Assembly (NCBI GenBank): GCA_946631535.1 | Contig: CAMPAF010000035.1 | Span: forward strand, 1-14,695 | Length of the DNA: 14,695 bases | Reading direction: 5' to 3' | DNA from: an uncultured Verrucomicrobiota bacterium | Lineage (GTDB): Bacteria > Verrucomicrobiota > Kiritimatiellia > RFP12 > UBA1067 | In this document: one piece after another, positions 583 to 11,030 of the stretch | How positions within the stretch are numbered: position 1 is the first letter of the stretch | Layout: each line of letters starts with the position of its first letter | Translations under genes and position numbers: made by a program | Notes under the pieces: model-generated | The model's database searches: none | What the model was told of the DNA's origin: nothing | What the model saw: the letters and a program-made list of their open reading frames with translations, nothing else

Positions 583-2034
583 ATGCATCGCACGGAAAGA
601 CCTCGGCGGCAGACAGTGCCGATAAACCTGATCCTCGACGGGCGGCCAGCGCTGGTCGTCGGCGGGGGGCAGGTCGGGCGTCGCAAGGTCATGTCCCTGC
701 TTGACGCGGGGGCTGGGGTGGAGCTGGTATGTCCCGAGGCGGTGGAGGAGCTGTCGGAGCTGGCGGCGGCGGGGCGCATCGGCTGGACGCGCCGCGAGTG
801 GCGCGCCGGCGACGCGGCGGGGCACATGCTCGTGTTCGCCTGCACTGACGACAAGCACGTGAACCGCGCGGTCCTCGACGACGCGCGCGCGGCGCATGTG
901 CCGTGTTGCTGTGCCGACCTCAACTGGGCGGACGGCGACTTCACGACGCCCGCGACGGTGCGTGTGGGCGACCTGGCGGTGGCGGTGTCCACAAGCGGGC
1001 AGGACTGCGCGGCGGCGCGCGACGCCAAGAACGAGATAGCGGCGCTGCTGGACGGCAGCGAGGCGTTGGAGCTGATCGTAATGGGCACGAGCGACGCGCT
1101 GCTGCCTTCGCGCAAGCGCGCGCCGTACCATTTGCCGTCTGAAGAGCGGGTGGCCGTCGGCCGGCTTGTCGCGCGCGTGCGCGGCGTACGCGAATTCTTC
1201 ATCTTGAACACTTGCAACCGCGTGGAGTTGGTCGTGCGGGCGGCGCCGGATCCCGACACGCTAGCGCTCCTGCGCCGCCTGGTGGGGTTCGACAGGCTCG
1301 CGGAAGAGGAGCAGTTCGTCTTCCGCGGGTTCGAGGCGTTCCGCCACCTGGTGCGCGTGACGGCGGGGCTGGAGTCGTCGCTGCTTGGCGAGAACCACAT
1401 CGTCTCGCAGATGAAGGACGCGCTGGACGAGGCGGCGGCCAACGGCTGGTCGGGGCCGTCGATACGCCGTGCCGGCGCGGAGATCATGCGCGTGGCTAAG
1501 GCCGTGCGGCACGAGGTGGAGGGGCTCTTGCACGTGGCGGAGATCGACCAGGTGGCGGTGCGCTACCTGAACGTCCACGGGGGACTCGACGCGAAGGCGC
1601 ATGTCCTCGTGATCGGTACGGGCATGGTTGGCACGGGCGCGGTTGAGGCGTTGGCGCGCACGGGCGCGCGGGTGACGTGGGCGTACCACAGGAGGTTGCC
1701 TGACGTCGGCATGTTCGGCGACCGTGCGCCTACGGTAGTTTCCATGGACGGGCTGCCTGCCGCGCTCGCGGCGGCGGACATCGTGCTGAGCGCGGTGGAT
1801 TCCGCGCAGCCAGTGGTCACGGCGGACATGCGTTCGGCGGTGGCGGACCGCAACGTGCTCTTCGTGGACCTTGGTGTGCCGCGCAACATCGATCCGTTCT
1901 ACGACGACTGGGGGCACGGGGTCACGGTGGCGGACCTTGACGCGCTCAAGCTGTGGCATCGCGTCAAGACGGGCACGCTCAACGAGGTGCGGGCGCGGGC
2001 GGACGCCGTGATAGCGGCGGAATGGAAGGAATGA
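583..2034 (+). CDS. hemA: Precorrin-2 dehydrogenase (SirC) / glutamyl-tRNA reductase (HemA) fusion protein
   Basis: This 483-residue protein joins two tetrapyrrole enzymes. Residues about 13-160 match the NAD-binding half of siroheme synthase (SirC/Met8/CysG N-terminus): glycine loop VVGGGQVG at 25-32, FACTDD, and an AVSTSGQ segment. That half oxidises precorrin-2 to sirohydrochlorin. Residues about 163-483 match glutamyl-tRNA reductase, which makes glutamate-1-semialdehyde for 5-aminolevulinate. They show the catalytic cysteine in TCNR (C211), the conserved His (H255), the GLESSLLGE segment at 262-270, and a second Rossmann loop GTGMVG at 345-350. Two oddities: the family's early N-H-x-x-A-P motif is degenerate (SDALLPSRKRA), and the protein stops where the C-terminal dimerisation helices usually begin, about 90 residues short. 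The fusion points to siroheme or cobalamin synthesis. The TolC-like gene overlaps or abuts the 3' end. Domain calls are firm; retained activity of each half is not. Confidence 0.9.
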   Translation: MHRTERPRRQTVPINLILDGRPALVVGGGQVGRRKVMSLLDAGAGVELVCPEAVEELSELAAAGRIGWTRREWRAGDAAGHMLVFACTDDKHVNRAVLDDARAAHVPCCCADLNWADGDFTTPATVRVGDLAVAVSTSGQDCAAARDAKNEIAALLDGSEALELIVMGTSDALLPSRKRAPYHLPSEERVAVGRLVARVRGVREFFILNTCNRVELVVRAAPDPDTLALLRRLVGFDRLAEEEQFVFRGFEAFRHLVRVTAGLESSLLGENHIVSQMKDALDEAAANGWSGPSIRRAGAEIMRVAKAVRHEVEGLLHVAEIDQVAVRYLNVHGGLDAKAHVLVIGTGMVGTGAVEALARTGARVTWAYHRRLPDVGMFGDRAPTVVSMDGLPAALAAADIVLSAVDSAQPVVTADMRSAVADRNVLFVDLGVPRNIDPFYDDWGHGVTVADLDALKLWHRVKTGTLNEVRARADAVIAAEWKE

Positions 2035-2036
2035 GC

Positions 2037-3710
2037 ATGCGCGTGCGCCACATCAGGATTGCGATCGCCGCAGCGCTTCTGGCGCTCTTGCATTCGGGAT
2101 GCCTCACACCCGAGAAGGCCGAGAGGGACGCGGACGAGACGGCCATCGCGCTCGCCACGGCGTGCTGGCGGGAGCAGTCCGGCGCGACGAACGAGTTCAA
2201 CGTGGCGCGTCCGCTCGACGTGCTTACGCTGCGCATCGCGCTCGAGGCGGTTCGCCAGGGCGTAACCAACACCGTGTTCCCTCGCATTGACGGAGTCGCG
2301 CCGCTTGAGCCGTCGAACGGCGTCACGTACCTTTCCCTGGATGACGCGCTGCGCATCGGCGCGCGCAACAACCGCAGGTACCAGACGCTGAAGGAGACGG
2401 TGTACCAGCGCGCGCTCACGCTCGACACGGAGAGCTATGCGTTCGACACGACGTTCAGCGGCTTCCTGCTCGGCACGCTCACCGGAAAGCCGGAGCTCAC
2501 GAAGGACTACGCGCAGGCGGGGGGCGGTGCCAAGCGGAAGTTCGAGCAGGGCACGACGCTCGCTGGGAACATGGCGATAGACGTGACGAAGATGATCCGC
2601 GACGACTGGCACTCTTTCGCCTGGACTGGCGACCTTACCGCGACCATACCGCTGCTGCGCGGCAGCGGACGCGACATCGTGCGCGAGCCGCTCACGCAGG
2701 CGGAGCGCAACCTGGACTATGCCATACTTACGTTCGAGCGCTACAGGCAGACGTACGCGCTCTCCATCGCGAAGTCGTACTACAGCGTGCTCTCCTACGC
2801 GCAGAACAGGCGCAACTCGGAAGGGAACGCCACCCGCCTGGAGCAGAACTGGAAGCGCGCGGAGATGATGTTCAAGGCGGGACGCATGGACCGCATACAG
2901 GTGGACCAGGCGCGTACCGATCTGCTTACGGCGCGGCAGTCCATCATCACGACCAAGAAGAGCTACGAGAACGCGCTCGACAACTTCAAGATATCGCTCG
3001 GACTGCCGCCAGAGGCGCCGATAGCGTTGCGGGACGAGGAGCTGTCCAAGCTCCAGGCGGCAATGGAGGTGAAGGCGCGTACGCAGCCGGACGCGCTCAC
3101 CGACTATCCACTGGAGGAGGAGGCGATGAACATCGCGCTCACGGAAAGGCGCGACCTTGCGGTGACGCGTGGCGACCTGGTAGATGCCGAGCGCGCGGTG
3201 ATGGTATCGGCCGACGCGCTGCGCGCGGACCTCACGGTGGAGGGCGGCGTGTCGTACGACGCCAAGCGAAGGCAGCACAAGGACAGCGTGGACGACGTGG
3301 TTGCCAGCACCGCGAAGCTGCGCTTCACTGCGCCTTGGGACAGGCGCAAGGAGCGCAACGCCTATCGCAAGGCGCTGATTCTGCTCGAGCAGAGCCGCCG
3401 CGCGCTGCAGGAGGAAGAGGACTCGATCAAGAACGAGGTGATGGCGGGGTACCGCGATCTTGTCGCAGCCCGAGCGCTCTACGAGAACAAGGTGGAGGCG
3501 TTCAAGGTGGCGCAGAAGCGCGTGGAGTCGAACGACCTCTTCATGCAGTCGGGCCGCAGCTCGATGCGTGACATCTTGGAGGCCGAGAGCGCGCTCCTTA
3601 CGGCGCAGAACGCTCTCTGCTCGGCAGTTGTCGAGTGGCGCACGAGCGAGCTTTCGCTGCGCTCGGCGATGGGCATTCTCGCCATCAATGATGACGGCAC
3701 CTGGCGCTAG
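2037..3710 (+). CDS. TolC-like outer-membrane efflux lipoprotein
   Basis: 557 residues of the outer membrane efflux protein (OEP/TolC) family, trimeric channels that export drugs, proteins or other substrates with an inner-membrane pump. The N-terminus is a hydrophobic signal ending LLHSGC, with Cys22 as a likely lipid attachment site; His at -3 makes the lipobox non-ideal. Two long helical repeats are visible. One begins YLSLDDALRIGARNN and the second EEEAMNIALTERRDLAV, each followed by alternating strands, and a coiled-coil-rich C-terminus reads RVESNDLFMQSGRSSMRDILEAESALL. I chose the ATG at 2037 because AAGGA at 2026-2030 sits six bases upstream. The ATG at 2031, which overlaps the hemA stop as ATGA, has no spacing to that site. 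No pump or adaptor gene is adjacent, so the substrate is unknown. Co-transcription with hemA is likely from the overlap. Confidence 0.85.
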   Translation: MRVRHIRIAIAAALLALLHSGCLTPEKAERDADETAIALATACWREQSGATNEFNVARPLDVLTLRIALEAVRQGVTNTVFPRIDGVAPLEPSNGVTYLSLDDALRIGARNNRRYQTLKETVYQRALTLDTESYAFDTTFSGFLLGTLTGKPELTKDYAQAGGGAKRKFEQGTTLAGNMAIDVTKMIRDDWHSFAWTGDLTATIPLLRGSGRDIVREPLTQAERNLDYAILTFERYRQTYALSIAKSYYSVLSYAQNRRNSEGNATRLEQNWKRAEMMFKAGRMDRIQVDQARTDLLTARQSIITTKKSYENALDNFKISLGLPPEAPIALRDEELSKLQAAMEVKARTQPDALTDYPLEEEAMNIALTERRDLAVTRGDLVDAERAVMVSADALRADLTVEGGVSYDAKRRQHKDSVDDVVASTAKLRFTAPWDRRKERNAYRKALILLEQSRRALQEEEDSIKNEVMAGYRDLVAARALYENKVEAFKVAQKRVESNDLFMQSGRSSMRDILEAESALLTAQNALCSAVVEWRTSELSLRSAMGILAINDDGTWR

Positions 3711-6877: not shown

Positions 6878-7702
6878 ATGCGCATCGTCGTCTGCGTAAA
6901 GCAAGTGCCGGACACCACGAACGTCCGGATAAACCCGAAGACCAACACGCTCATGCGTGAGGGCGTGGAGTCCATCGTCAACCCGTTCGACGAGTACGCC
7001 CTGGAGGAGGCCCTCCGCCTGAAGGACCAGGCGGGGGCGCACGTGACGGTGGTGTCGATGGGTCCGCCCCAGGCGATGGCGGTGCTGCGCGAGGCGCTCG
7101 CCCGCGGCGCGGACGACGCGTTCCTCGTGTCGTCCCGCGCCTTCGGCGGCGCAGATACCCTGGCCACGTCATACACGCTAGCGATGGCGATAAAGAAGGC
7201 CTGCGGCGGCGAGACGCCGGACCTCGTGCTCTTCGGAAAGCAGGCGATTGACGGCGACACTGCCCAGGTGGGTCCCGGCGTGAGCGAGTTCCTCGGGGTG
7301 CCGCTGGTGACGTACGTGAAGTCAATATCCTTATCGAAGGGGAGCGGGGAAACCGGGGTTTCCCCGTCGTTTGCCGTCACCACCATCATGGATGACGGCG
7401 AGCACATGATCGAGGGGAAGTTCCCGGCCGTGATGACCGTGCTGAAGGAGGCGTCGGTGCCGCGCTTCGCGCCGCTCGCGGGGGCGATGCGCGCGGCGAA
7501 GTCCGAGATCACGGTGCTGGACGAGAAGTCCATTGCCGCAGACCCTATCCGCATAGGGCTGAAAGGCTCGCCGACGAAGGTGGTGACGATCTTCCCTCCG
7601 CCGGTGAAGGGCGGGGGAGAGAAGGTAGACGCGCGCGGCGACGCGGCCGCGGGCGCGAAGGCGATCGCGAAGTTCCTCGCGGAGAAAGGCTTGGTGAAGT
7701 GA
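6878..7702 (+). CDS. etfB: Electron transfer flavoprotein beta subunit
   Basis: 274 residues of the EtfB family, which with EtfA binds FAD and moves electrons between dehydrogenases and other carriers. Family motifs: MRIVVCVKQVPDT at the N-terminus, VNPFDEYALEEALRLK, GADDAFLV, FGKQAIDGDTAQVGP (nucleotide-contacting region) and EGKFPAVMTVLKE. The ATG is three bases after the epimerase stop, with GGAGAAG inside the end of that gene as a possible ribosome site. Around residues 152-165 the usual short turn is replaced by KGSGETGVSPSF, encoded over a 22-base perfect palindrome. A second, imperfect palindrome near 7591-7624 encodes PPPVKGGGE close to the C-terminus. Both look like inserted or drifted low-complexity sequence in loops. 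etfA follows after one base. Confidence 0.95.
   Translation: MRIVVCVKQVPDTTNVRINPKTNTLMREGVESIVNPFDEYALEEALRLKDQAGAHVTVVSMGPPQAMAVLREALARGADDAFLVSSRAFGGADTLATSYTLAMAIKKACGGETPDLVLFGKQAIDGDTAQVGPGVSEFLGVPLVTYVKSISLSKGSGETGVSPSFAVTTIMDDGEHMIEGKFPAVMTVLKEASVPRFAPLAGAMRAAKSEITVLDEKSIAADPIRIGLKGSPTKVVTIFPPPVKGGGEKVDARGDAAAGAKAIAKFLAEKGLVK
7345..7366. repeat. Perfect 22-base palindrome inside etfB
   Basis: Arms CGGGGAAACC and GGTTTCCCCG separated by GG, in frame within the coding sequence. The encoded residues fall in a loop of EtfB that has no conserved motif. It may be a small palindromic element inserted in a tolerant site. A chance origin is unlikely for ten paired bases but not excluded. Confidence 0.7.
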
Positions 7703-7703
7703 C

Positions 7704-8963
7704 ATGGCCGACGCACCTATTTTCATCGATCCCGCGAAGTGCAAGGGCTGCACGAAGTGCGTGAAGGGCTGCGGCTTCGGAGCGCTCAAGATGGTTGACG
7801 CGCCCGGCGCGAACAAGGCCGGGAAGCTTGCAGAGGTAGATCCCGCCGCATGCAAGGCGTGCTTCGCCTGCATACCTGCGTGCCCGTTCAAGGCGATCAG
7901 CGAGGTGAAGCAGGAGATCTACGGAACGGCGGACCTTGATTCCTACAGGAACATCTGGGTGTTCGCCGAGCAGACGGGCGGTGTCATCGCCGAGGTGGCG
8001 TTCGAGCTGCTCGCGAAGGCGCTGGAGCTGAAGGCGCAGCGCGGCGGCGACGCGCAGGTGGCCGCCATCCTCCTCGGGCACGGTCTCAAGCCGGAGCTGG
8101 AGCAGAGCCTAATCGCGGCTGGCGCGGACGTCGTGTACAAGGTGGACGATCCTGCGCTCGCCGACTACGAGGCGAACGTGTACGTGGACGCCGTGGCGCA
8201 GCTTGTCGAGAAGCATAAGCCAGAGGTGATCCTCGCGGGTGCCACCGCGGTGGGGCGCGCCTTCTTCGCGCGCGTGGCGGTGAAGGTACGCACTGGCCTC
8301 ACGGCCGACTGTACGATGCTCAAGGTGGAGGAGACGAAGAACAAGGACACGGGCGCCATGCAGATGCTGCTGCACCAGACGCGTCCCGCGTTCGGCGGCA
8401 ACATCATGGCCACCATCATGACCCCGAACCACCGTCCGCAGATGGCCACGGTGCGCCCGAAGGTCTTCAAGAAGGCTCCGCCGGATCCGACGCGGAAGGG
8501 TCAGGTGCTGCTGGAGGCGCTGAAGCTCATCGCGCCGCAGACGAGGCTCGTGAAGACGGCGCGCGATCCGGACGCGATCGACATCGCGGCGCACGACATC
8601 CTCGTCTCGGGCGGGCGAGGGCTCAAGAGCGCCGACAACTTTAAGCTGCTCTTCCGCCTGGCCGAGCTGCTTGGCGGCGAGGTGTCCTGTTCGCGCGCAT
8701 GCGTGGACGCCGGTTGGGCGCCGGTCGCGCGCCAGGTTGGGCAGACGGGCAAGACCGTCGCGCCGAAGCTCTACCTTTGCTTCGGCATCTCGGGCGCCAT
8801 CCAGCATCTGGAAGGCATCCGCGGCGCCGACACCATAATCGCCGTCAACTCCGACCCGAACGCGCCGATCTTCGGCGTGGCCGATCTCGGGATCGTAGGC
8901 GACCTCTTCGAGATACTGCCCGCCCTCGTCAAGGAACTCGAACATGGGGGACGCGGCGGTTGA
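7704..8963 (+). CDS. etfA: Electron transfer flavoprotein alpha subunit with N-terminal 2[4Fe-4S] ferredoxin domain
   Basis: 419 residues. The first 70 or so form a bacterial ferredoxin-like domain with two C-x2-C-x2-C-x3-C sets (C13, C16, C19, C23 and C50, C53, C56, C60), enough for two [4Fe-4S] clusters. A normal EtfA follows: NIWVFAEQTGGVIAEVAFELLAKA, the VGRAFFARVAVKVRTGLTADC region, QTRPAFGGNIMATI, and the FAD-binding C-terminus with VSGGRGL, CFGISGAIQHLEGI and AVNSDPNAPIFGVADLGIVGD. This architecture is known from CarE and LctC of Acetobacterium woodii, where Etf takes part in flavin-based electron bifurcation with caffeyl-CoA reductase or lactate dehydrogenase. No dehydrogenase gene is in this window, so the partner is unknown. 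The kinase gene starts inside the last 20 bases. Confidence 0.95.
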   Translation: MADAPIFIDPAKCKGCTKCVKGCGFGALKMVDAPGANKAGKLAEVDPAACKACFACIPACPFKAISEVKQEIYGTADLDSYRNIWVFAEQTGGVIAEVAFELLAKALELKAQRGGDAQVAAILLGHGLKPELEQSLIAAGADVVYKVDDPALADYEANVYVDAVAQLVEKHKPEVILAGATAVGRAFFARVAVKVRTGLTADCTMLKVEETKNKDTGAMQMLLHQTRPAFGGNIMATIMTPNHRPQMATVRPKVFKKAPPDPTRKGQVLLEALKLIAPQTRLVKTARDPDAIDIAAHDILVSGGRGLKSADNFKLLFRLAELLGGEVSCSRACVDAGWAPVARQVGQTGKTVAPKLYLCFGISGAIQHLEGIRGADTIIAVNSDPNAPIFGVADLGIVGDLFEILPALVKELEHGGRGG

Positions 8964-10455
8964 GAGATGGCTGGCCTCGCGCACGCCCGAGCATGGCGTG
9001 CGCGGACGGCTGGCGCGTGGCGCCGTCGTTGGGGAATGGCGCGTGGGGGTCTTCCTTGGGGCGGGGCTTTCCGCCGAGGTCTATCGCGTACAGAACGTCC
9101 GATTCGGGCACGAGGGCGCGCTCAAGTTGCTTGTTGACGCCTCGCGCGGCCTGAAGGAGCGCTTCCTCGCGGAGGAGGACGCTATACGCTACCTGTCCTT
9201 GCCGGCGCTGCCGCAGTTTCTCGGCTCGGGAACCGTCAACGGATCGCCGTACTACGTGATGGAGTATCTGCAGCCGTTGCCAGACCCGATGCCGCGCGCG
9301 GAGGTCCCTCGTTTCATGAGCAAGGTCGCCAAGGCGGTGCACATGCTGCACGACGCCGGGTACGTGCATCGCGACCTCAAGCCAGGCAACATCCTGAGAC
9401 GGATGAACGGCGACCCGGTTCTGATCGACCTGGGGCTCATAAAGCGGCGCGGCAACGGACCTGATCCGATAGGACGGCATGCGAAGGGGATTTCGGTCGT
9501 TGACGGAAAGCCCGTGGGCGTGGGTACGCTGGACTTCGCTGCGCCGGAGCAGCTGCTGAAGGGCGAGTGGTCGGTCCAGAGCGACATCTTCGCGCTCGGT
9601 AAGCTTTTGAGCTTCTTCTACGAGGGCATGCCGCCGTACCAAGTCAAGTCGATCATACGGCGTGCGACGCGTGCGCAGCCAGGAGACAGGTATGCGACCG
9701 CTAACGATTTCGCGGCGGCGATCAGCCATCGGCACCATCCGCTGATAATGTGCGTGGCGTGCGTGCTGCTCGCAGCCGTCGGCGTGGCGTTCGCGGTCTC
9801 ACGCAGCCCTCAGACCGTGCCGGATGGGACGGACCCGCAGCATGGCGCGGGTGAGAATCGCGGAACGCCGGGCAAGGCGGACGAGCAGCCGACGAAACCC
9901 GAGACCGAAGAAGTCGAATATGGGAAGCTACCAGATGAGAGAGACGACGACTACCTAGCTCGGATGATGCCGTTGGCGGAGGCCGGCGACGCAATTGCGC
10001 AGACTGCGGTGGCGGAGGCGTACTTCTACGGACGCGGCACGGAGACGAACCGCGAGGTGGCCGTATCGTGGTATCGCCTGGCGGCTGATGCCGGCCATGC
10101 TGACGCGCAGGCGTCGCTCGGGCTGTGCCTTTTCCGGGGATGGGGATGCGAGAAGAATCTCGAGGAGGCGGCGGACTTGTACGGCAAGGCTGCAGAGCAG
10201 GGGAACCTTGGCGCGATGACCGATCTCGCGTTCTGCTGCCTGAACGGCTTTGGCGTGGAGAAGGACCTCGCGAAAGGTTTCGATTTCGCGATGAAGGCGG
10301 CGTTGCGCGGGCATGCTCCGGCGCAGACGCTCGTAGGCGAATGCTACCTTGAGGGACTTGGCGTCGAGGCTGACGAGGAGCGTGGCGAGATGTGGCTATA
10401 CCGAGCGGCACGCCAGGACAACAAGCGCGCACAGATGCTGCTTCGCTACCGCTAG
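8944..10455 (+). CDS. Transmembrane Ser/Thr protein kinase with C-terminal Sel1 repeats
   Basis: 503 residues in three parts. Residues about 28-258 are a Hanks-type kinase: glycine loop GAGLSAEVY (39-47), ATP-site Lys in GALKLL (K61), catalytic HRDLKPGN (142-149, Asp144), and DLG at 162-164 in place of DFG, a common bacterial variant, then GTLDFAAPEQ. A single transmembrane helix follows at about 266-286 (PLIMCVACVLLAAVGVAFAV) with a Pro/Glu-rich linker. Residues about 337-503 are four or more Sel1-type repeats of about 36 residues (AEAYFYGRGTETN, LGLCLFRGWGCEKN, LAFCCLNGFGVEKD, VGECYLEGLGVEAD). They would lie outside the membrane and bind a partner. The start at 8944 has AAGGA eight bases upstream and overlaps etfA by 20 bases. 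The next gene, on the opposite strand, is an ECF sigma factor and a possible target. Confidence 0.93.
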   Translation: MGDAAVERWLASRTPEHGVRGRLARGAVVGEWRVGVFLGAGLSAEVYRVQNVRFGHEGALKLLVDASRGLKERFLAEEDAIRYLSLPALPQFLGSGTVNGSPYYVMEYLQPLPDPMPRAEVPRFMSKVAKAVHMLHDAGYVHRDLKPGNILRRMNGDPVLIDLGLIKRRGNGPDPIGRHAKGISVVDGKPVGVGTLDFAAPEQLLKGEWSVQSDIFALGKLLSFFYEGMPPYQVKSIIRRATRAQPGDRYATANDFAAAISHRHHPLIMCVACVLLAAVGVAFAVSRSPQTVPDGTDPQHGAGENRGTPGKADEQPTKPETEEVEYGKLPDERDDDYLARMMPLAEAGDAIAQTAVAEAYFYGRGTETNREVAVSWYRLAADAGHADAQASLGLCLFRGWGCEKNLEEAADLYGKAAEQGNLGAMTDLAFCCLNGFGVEKDLAKGFDFAMKAALRGHAPAQTLVGECYLEGLGVEADEERGEMWLYRAARQDNKRAQMLLRYR

Positions 10456-11030
10456 GCGGTCATTGACGAGACGAGCGCGGAGAGCTTGCCTATCATCCTG
10501 CTCTTGATCTGGTCGACGTTGTTGCGGGTGATGCCGAACTGCCGAGCCACGTCGTCCGGCGGCTCGCTCATCAGCGCCACGTGGCGGAATACTTCGCGCG
10601 TGCTGGCAGCGATGGAGCCGTCAGACATCAACTGTTCCATCGCGGCCTCCATGGCGGCCATCTTCCAGGAGTCGTCCTCCTCGGTGACGACGGTGCGCAG
10701 GCCTTCCTCCTGCGCGATGTCCGACCGAAGGCTGGAAAACGACGCGTTGCGCCGGATGGCGTCGAGGGCCTTGTGCTTCACGATCCCCATGAGGTAGTTG
10801 TGGAAGTGTCCCTTGCTGTCTGGCGTGTAGTGGTATTCCGGCATGGCCTTCATGAGAGCCAGCAGCGTCTCTTGGATTACGTCGTCCGCCTCCACGGAAG
10901 GGAACCGCTCGTGCAGGAAGCCGCGCATGGCGGGCTCGTACCGCCTGTAGAACTCGGTCCAACGCACCGACGCGGTGCCGTCGGAGATGTCCTTCAGCAG
11001 GGAAACGGATGTCTTTGGAACTGGTGTCAT
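10452..11030 (-). CDS. ECF-type RNA polymerase sigma factor
   Basis: 192 residues of the sigma-70 family, ECF group. Region 2 spans roughly 25-95: WTEFYRRYEPAMRGFLHERF, SVEADDVIQETLLALMKAM, then FHNYLMGIVKHKALDAIRR. Region 4 is near the C-terminus: STREVFRHVALMSEPPDDVARQFGITRNNVDQIKSRMIGKL, a helix-turn-helix. The linker is acidic and Met/Glu-rich. Acidic residues of region 2.2 that contact RNA polymerase are present (EADD, QE). No anti-sigma gene is adjacent; the convergent neighbour is a transmembrane kinase, and the two genes overlap by four bases. The ATG at 11030 has no Shine-Dalgarno. A promoter-like TGA-TATACT ends six bases upstream, so the message may be leaderless. Targets are unknown. 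Confidence 0.92.
   Translation of the reverse strand: MTPVPKTSVSLLKDISDGTASVRWTEFYRRYEPAMRGFLHERFPSVEADDVIQETLLALMKAMPEYHYTPDSKGHFHNYLMGIVKHKALDAIRRNASFSSLRSDIAQEEGLRTVVTEEDDSWKMAAMEAAMEQLMSDGSIAASTREVFRHVALMSEPPDDVARQFGITRNNVDQIKSRMIGKLSALVSSMTA

Follow-up and report, generated by a model that had tools for sequence, protein, structure and literature searches.

A single open reading frame in the window, the 14,695-nucleotide stretch of DNA analysed here, very probably encodes a bifunctional enzyme that joins an active precorrin-2 dehydrogenase (SirC) to an active glutamyl-tRNA reductase (GluTR; HemA). As judged from sequence and gene content, the two would most likely be the only enzymes of their kind in the cell and would both serve the trunk route that leads from glutamyl-tRNA to heme. 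Where tetrapyrroles are made by the C5 pathway, GluTR is among the chief points of control, and textbooks show the enzyme as a V-shaped dimer. The window derives from Kiritimatiellia, which are poorly known anaerobic bacteria. In our search of the open-licence literature, we found no account of such a fusion.

The domain order, a predicted precorrin-2 dehydrogenase of the Met8p/CysG-B type followed by a predicted glutamyl-tRNA reductase, was confirmed by several searches (Table 1). Pfam placed NAD_binding_7 at residues 15-124 (102.9 bits), GlutR_N at residues 191-311 (86.9 bits, entering the profile at position 26) and Shikimate_DH at residues 338-456 (63.9 bits); GlutR_dimer (PF00745) was not among the 13 Pfam families matched by the protein at E ≤ 1. 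With the NCBIfam models, the SirC half scored 99.1 bits against cysG_Nterm (TIGR01470), above the cut-off of 62.3, and the HemA half scored 121.1 bits against hemA (TIGR01035), below the cut-off of 209.55 and with a match that stops at profile position 327 of 416. A sequence search of the PDB aligned residues 12-158 with the precorrin-2 dehydrogenase 3dfz and residues 199-457 with the M. kandleri GluTR 1gpj. The AF2 model reached a pTM of 0.52, at which the orientation of the domains is unsure. Together with relatives of the same architecture, these matches bear out the fusion proposed by the initial annotation.

Table 1 Positions of the SirC-HemA fusion gene, its domains and key residues, and the following gene in the window.
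Feature	Positions	Strand	Basis
SirC-HemA fusion gene, 483 aa	583..2034	+	Pfam, NCBIfam and PDB matches; relatives
SirC half with Rossmann fold (NAD binding) and CysG-type dimerisation element, residues 12-160	616..1062	+	
D112, aligned to CysG D104	916..918	+	
GluTR catalytic domain, residues 161-312	1063..1518	+	
TCNR motif T210-R213, presumed nucleophile C211 (codon 1213-1215)	1210..1221	+	
H255, conserved His of GluTR	1345..1347	+	
NADP-binding domain, residues 338-456; GTGMVG at 345-350	1594..1950	+	
C-terminal stub in place of the dimerisation domain	1951..2031	+	
Following gene, for an outer membrane efflux protein (TolC-like)	2031..3710	+	

Compared with canonical HemA (TIGR01035; 1gpj, 5yjl), the fusion carries SirC in front, scores under the family cut-off and lacks both the dimerisation domain and the N-H-x-x-A-P motif. 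At the place where this motif is expected, the protein of the window reads G-T-S-D-A-L-L-P, and the GxVSxS stretch that follows the catalytic domain in canonical GluTR differs as well. The chain continues for 48 residues after N435 in the window and for 39-88 residues in 29 fusions, the window being one of these, as opposed to 133-164 residues in 12 canonical HemAs. That an error of sequencing, a concern raised by the initial annotation, or of assembly removed the domain is a negligible possibility: all 29 of the 29 fusions end alike, and the stop codon at 2032-2034 is overlapped by a possible ATG start of the TolC-like gene at 2031 (an ATGA overlap), which leaves no space for a frameshifted dimerisation domain. 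The linkage to the TolC-like gene recurs in the two closest relatives (L064 and L001). We do not regard it as meaningful, as TolC is the next gene in only 2 of 20 loci, many loci having a flank of only ~1.5 kb. Further downstream, the window holds an EtfB-like and an EtfA-like gene (6878-8963), the latter with an N-terminal ferredoxin-type 4Fe-4S domain. These are followed by a gene with a protein kinase domain and then four Sel1 repeats (8944-10455, Pfam) and, on the strand opposite to it, by an ECF-like sigma factor (10452-11030).

The trimmed GluTR had been presented as a trait of the fusion. The dimerisation domain is indeed missing, but its absence is not special to the fusion, since short stand-alone HemAs exist in Opitutales-type Verrucomicrobia and in Omnitrophota. 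Like the fusion, these proteins consist of the catalytic and NADP domains without the dimerisation domain, with 48-83 residues after the N435 position in 20 of them (e.g. L115:5977-6999 and L131:6435-7424). Unlike the fusion, they are unfused and lie outside the fusion clade in the HemA tree, in which 16 of them group as a Verrucomicrobia clade and the Omnitrophota proteins as two pairs. Their placement in separate groups of this tree, midpoint-rooted and in part unresolved, suggests that the dimerisation domain was lost more than once. One NCBIfam model for HemA, NF001909, spans 338 positions.

To survey the class beyond the window, we used a panel of 72 hand-chosen related genomes, each with a completeness of 90% or more and a contamination of 5% or less. 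The presence or absence of another hemA was assessed in these relatives of the window, mostly MAGs, and the search results were sorted manually to count fusions and further HemAs. A fusion with both halves occurs in 55 of the 72 genomes. No other HemA exceeds the TIGR01035 cut-off in 49 of them, including G147 and G082, each a single contig; further non-fusion matches in these 49 reach at most 27.2 bits, and those of 18 to 27 bits, which cover the nucleotide-domain part only, were excluded from the HemA counts. The other six fusion genomes (G160, G040, G092, G115, G178 and G208) have a second HemA above the cut-off. In the family of the window (f1), 17 of 18 fusion genomes are without another HemA above the cut-off. 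SirC was found once in each of the 55 genomes, within the fusion, except in G097, which has two fusions. Thus, a separate hemA or sirC, for which the initial annotation had proposed to look, is lacking in most fusion-bearing relatives at these thresholds. The refutation named there, which included a separate complete hemA, was not borne out by these counts.

In thirteen panel genomes, SirC is not joined to a complete HemA half, and 12 of these have a separate HemA match. Nine of the matches lie above the cut-off; those of G012 (122.8 bits) and G013 (121.7 bits) fall below it and are no weaker than the HemA halves of the fusions, and that of G074 is a fragment at a contig edge (65.7 bits). The thirteenth genome, G089, yielded neither a HemA match nor HemL; it encodes a SirC-HemC-CobA-HemD protein of 894 residues (L147:6098-8779). 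Four further genomes were left out of both groups, because G001 has only part of the fusion and G015, G005 and G019 gave no SirC match. A separate HemA match of any strength was therefore seen in 6 of 55 fusion genomes as compared with 12 of the 13 whose SirC lacks a complete HemA half (Fisher p = 3e-8, kinship ignored and hence descriptive), and one above the cut-off in 6 of 55 as compared with 9 of 13 (p = 5e-5, likewise descriptive).

A closer inspection of the HemA half indicates that its catalytic residues are retained. Both C211 of the TCNR motif and H255 are present in the window, as had been noted initially, together with an NADP-binding domain with its GxGxxG motif. Across the 76 fusions of set A2, which includes the window, T210, C211, R213, E215, H255, G269, E270 and Q276 are invariant. 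In the panel, where one of the two copies was read for G097, all 55 fusions have Cys211, Thr210, Arg213, Glu215, Gly269, Glu270, Gln276 and the glycines of GxGxxG. Asn212 is found in 53 of them (S in G079, D in G191) and His255 in 52, being replaced by Tyr in G026 and by Arg in both G053 and G042. The fusions of family f10 and of G053, G042 and G268 match TIGR01035 only in parts of 29-82 bits apiece. In G053 and G042 (f17; L156:8897-10258 and L169), which combine the intact Cys motif with Arg at the conserved His, the panel searches found neither siroheme decarboxylase nor ferrochelatase.

These data bear on whether the HemA half might be a structural or regulatory remnant, with the fusion acting only as precorrin-2 dehydrogenase and 5-aminolevulinate coming from another source. 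Such a reading, which we consider improbable, would fit the score below the TIGR01035 cut-off and the replacement of the conserved His in 3 of 55 fusions. It would also fit the decayed HemA halves of G045 and G074, both of them cut short and devoid of the TCNR motif, and that of G105, which has TCTR in place of TCNR and ends before the NADP domain; SirC with a dead rump is thus viable. However, each of the three genomes also has a HemA match elsewhere (the contig-edge fragment in the case of G074), and the Cys is kept in every one of the 55 fusions, 49 of which are the sole HemA above the cut-off in genomes where HemL and HemB are nearly always present. SirC with a decaying HemA rump was seen at L053:11064-12017, L143:4927-5997 and L144:2257-3267, in genomes with another HemA match. 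Since the catalytic residues are kept, another HemA is absent from most fusion genomes and a separate HemA is found where the half is missing, we conclude that the fusion is most likely the working, and usually the only, GluTR of these bacteria.

The SirC half is trimmed as well, which the initial annotation had not remarked on, its TIGR01470 match stopping at position 147 of 205 and its CysG match at residue 150. Relative to the CysG-B/Met8p dehydrogenase-chelatase module (TIGR01470, 1pjq), it covers only CysG residues 1-150 and lacks the all-helical domain; HemA follows directly, and GluTR replaces CysG-A as the partner domain. The AF2 model shows the dimerisation element as two strands (residues 124-128 and 131-135) and a helix (142-157). 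G27 and G29 are invariant in the 76 A2 fusions, and D112 is kept in all 76 of these and in 55 of 55 panel fusions. By the alignment and the CysG numbering, C142 sits at the position of CysG P133. We discarded C142 as a metal site specific to the fusion, since the stand-alone SirC proteins of G071 and G055 have the identical Cys; the CCC run that precedes D112 is only partly kept, both in these two proteins and in other fusions.

Passages of a study on CysG (PMC7018833) describe the role of D104, the equivalent of D112, as well as a strand-strand-helix element that forms the dimer and an all-helical domain that lies over the tetrapyrrole site of the partner chain. Because the D104 equivalent is kept, the N-terminal half is possibly also a siroheme ferrochelatase. 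As the initial annotation had suggested of the SirC half, its retained dimerisation element may hold the GluTR half as a dimer. Going further, the two enzymes may have exchanged domains: GluTR would sit on the dimer element of SirC, and its catalytic domain would take the place of the helical cap and close the precorrin-2/sirohydrochlorin pocket of the other chain, the occupancy of which would set GluTR activity in the manner of a feedback sensor linking the first committed step with an intermediate of the trunk. We put this forward tentatively and regard it as rather unlikely.

Which end product the fusion serves can be approached from the gene content of the panel. HemL (E ≤ 1e-60) was found in 70 of 72 genomes (missing from G089 and G208), HemB in all 72 and HemC in 70 (missing from G251 and G268); G208 is thus a fusion genome without HemL, and G251 and G268 are fusion genomes without HemC. 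In G195, HemL lies within an open frame of 891 residues (L151:6998-9670), of which Pfam recognises the aminotransferase part only, the first ~460 residues being perhaps non-coding or an uncharacterised domain; G274 is similar. In the family of the window, ferrochelatase was found in 0 of 20 genomes, siroheme decarboxylase (PF17805) and radical SAM proteins of the AhbD family (E ≤ 1e-40) in 19 each, and siroheme-type sulfite/nitrite reductase domains in 14. With siroheme decarboxylase present and ferrochelatase absent, f1 most likely makes heme from siroheme, which would place SirC on the trunk of the pathway. The Pontiellaceae-like family f31 presents the reverse, with ferrochelatase in 12 of 12 genomes and siroheme decarboxylase in 0 of 12. 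The fusion thus serves both cells that most likely make heme via siroheme, including the family of the window, and cells with a ferrochelatase.

The initial annotation had suggested that the fusion biases 5-aminolevulinate towards siroheme or B12 instead of heme, and this did not hold up. CbiD, the sole B12 marker used, was found in 3 of 72 panel genomes and in 1 of 20 in f1, which speaks against B12 as the usual end product. In f1, heme would most likely itself derive from siroheme. Moreover, the two half-reactions are separated by five enzymes (HemL, HemB, HemC, HemD and CobA), making direct channelling implausible. Siroheme and heme most likely do branch in f31, given its ferrochelatase and lack of siroheme decarboxylase, which speaks for such a bias; overall we hold it to be highly improbable.

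The gene neighbourhoods are consistent with a common trunk for both activities. In G007, genes for AhbC-like, AhbD-like, AhbAB, SirC-HemA, HemC-CobA-HemD, HemB and HemL proteins follow one another on a single strand, and neighbours from AhbAB through HemL overlap (with starts chosen by script). G159 and G097 show the same order in an operon-like run, as read from match coordinates. In both G254 and G007, the AhbB model NF040707 scores above its cut-off and the AhbA model NF040708 falls short of its own. For the AhbC-like (561.7 versus 650 bits) and AhbD-like (424.5 versus 500 bits) proteins of G007, the AhbC and AhbD models are the best matches, below their cut-offs; AhbC, AhbD and AhbA all rank as best or second NCBIfam matches in this genome, each below the cut-off. 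No AhbD-like match in the panel search reached the 500-bit cut-off of TIGR04545. Compared with the siroheme-dependent AhbA-D pathway of archaea and sulfate reducers, the family of the window is alike in its AhbAB, AhbC-like and AhbD-like proteins and in the lack of a ferrochelatase. It differs in that GluTR and SirC are one protein, AhbA and AhbB share one frame and HemC, CobA and HemD are one protein.

Of an initial 20 neighbourhoods, 14 share a cluster of HemC-CobA-HemD frames of ~720 residues, which in 11 of these stand beside a fusion or SirC frame. With tblastn, a gene of this type was located in 17 of the 20 and, within the set with 1.5-kb flanks, at seven loci of f1. In this class, HemC is usually joined to CobA and HemD and stops short of its C-terminal domain (profile positions 1 to ~212 of 293; e.g. 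L036:6892-9051), which makes it a second trimmed enzyme in the same operon; the lost part is presumably the one that carries the cofactor cysteine. In the genus of the window the operon is dispersed and the fusion is retained.

The fusion is by no means peculiar to the window, and its architecture is found throughout the class. Among the 120 matches listed, of 505 in a protein search with the fusion, 119 have both NAD_binding_7 (PF13241) and GlutR_N (PF05201), and none has PF00745. The few named matches are Kiritimatiellia or Kiritimatiellae MAG proteins with the titles NAD(P)-dependent oxidoreductase, hypothetical protein or glutamyl-tRNA reductase. Among the matches listed from named records, full-span fusions in a single frame come at least from Kiritimatiellae and from MAGs labelled Verrucomicrobia, Lentisphaerae, Spirochaetia and Planctomycetota, labels taken from record titles, not from GTDB. 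Within the class of the nearest genome, 175 of 288 genomes match the query, many over the full length and some in one half only. The panel genome G001 is 97.3% identical to the window over 1,656 bp and keeps just the last 52 codons of the fusion gene, at a contig edge. Both halves of the fusion are under purifying selection, with dN/dS of 0.07-0.40 in 12 comparisons by half, some of them with saturated dS. In a midpoint-rooted and partly unresolved tree of 61 HemA parts, all 29 fusions fall into one clade (support 100/99), set apart by a long branch from the 32 other HemAs. A form of the fusion with ~430 residues, shortened loops and a very long branch occurs in f10 and its kin (L051, L052, L103 and L106) and retains the Cys motif.

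Neighbouring operon genes may also have fused neutrally, with no coupling and with both enzymes working as if apart, and we give this close to, though somewhat less than, an even chance. CysG-B and GluTR have their own separate active sites, and the gene order of the fusion exists as two genes elsewhere: Lactobacillales have adjoining sirC and hemA (L110, L111 and L113; the SirC-to-HemA spans that looked like a fusion there are two separate genes), their HemA being full length, unlike that of the fusion, and the Omnitrophota record L131 has sirC next to a short hemA. By match positions, sirC and hemA are also neighbours in G012 and G013. As the two genes are neighbours when separate in Lactobacillales and the Omnitrophota record, co-expression alone is a fair explanation of the fusion. 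Against a purely neutral event, the fusion forms one clade that spans many families and is kept where the operon has dispersed, which suggests a benefit in co-expression, assembly or coupling. A neutral origin is compatible with a bifunctional enzyme on the trunk and bears only on why the two parts are fused.

Taken together, the gene content and residue conservation point to a C-terminal half that would act as an active NADPH-dependent glutamyl-tRNA reductase and supply glutamate-1-semialdehyde to HemL. The N-terminal half would oxidise precorrin-2, delivered by HemC-CobA-HemD, to sirohydrochlorin, and in the family of the window siroheme would most likely be converted to heme by AhbA/B, AhbC and AhbD. 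Both activities of the fusion would thereby belong to a single linear trunk that begins with glutamyl-tRNA and ends in heme, assuming that flux in vivo follows this order.

Kiritimatiellaeota are counted among the heme auxotrophs in a passage of PMC11139205 that cites another paper, auxotrophy being defined there as a heme pathway less than 50% complete. The family of the window appears to have the gene content for heme synthesis by the siroheme route, a gene content that searches aimed at the classical pathway may overlook, and this suggests that at least one Kiritimatiellia family may make heme via siroheme. A lineage that most likely relies on a GluTR without the dimerisation domain raises the question of whether this domain is needed at all, and the fusion raises that of whether a late intermediate may feed back on the first step inside one protein.
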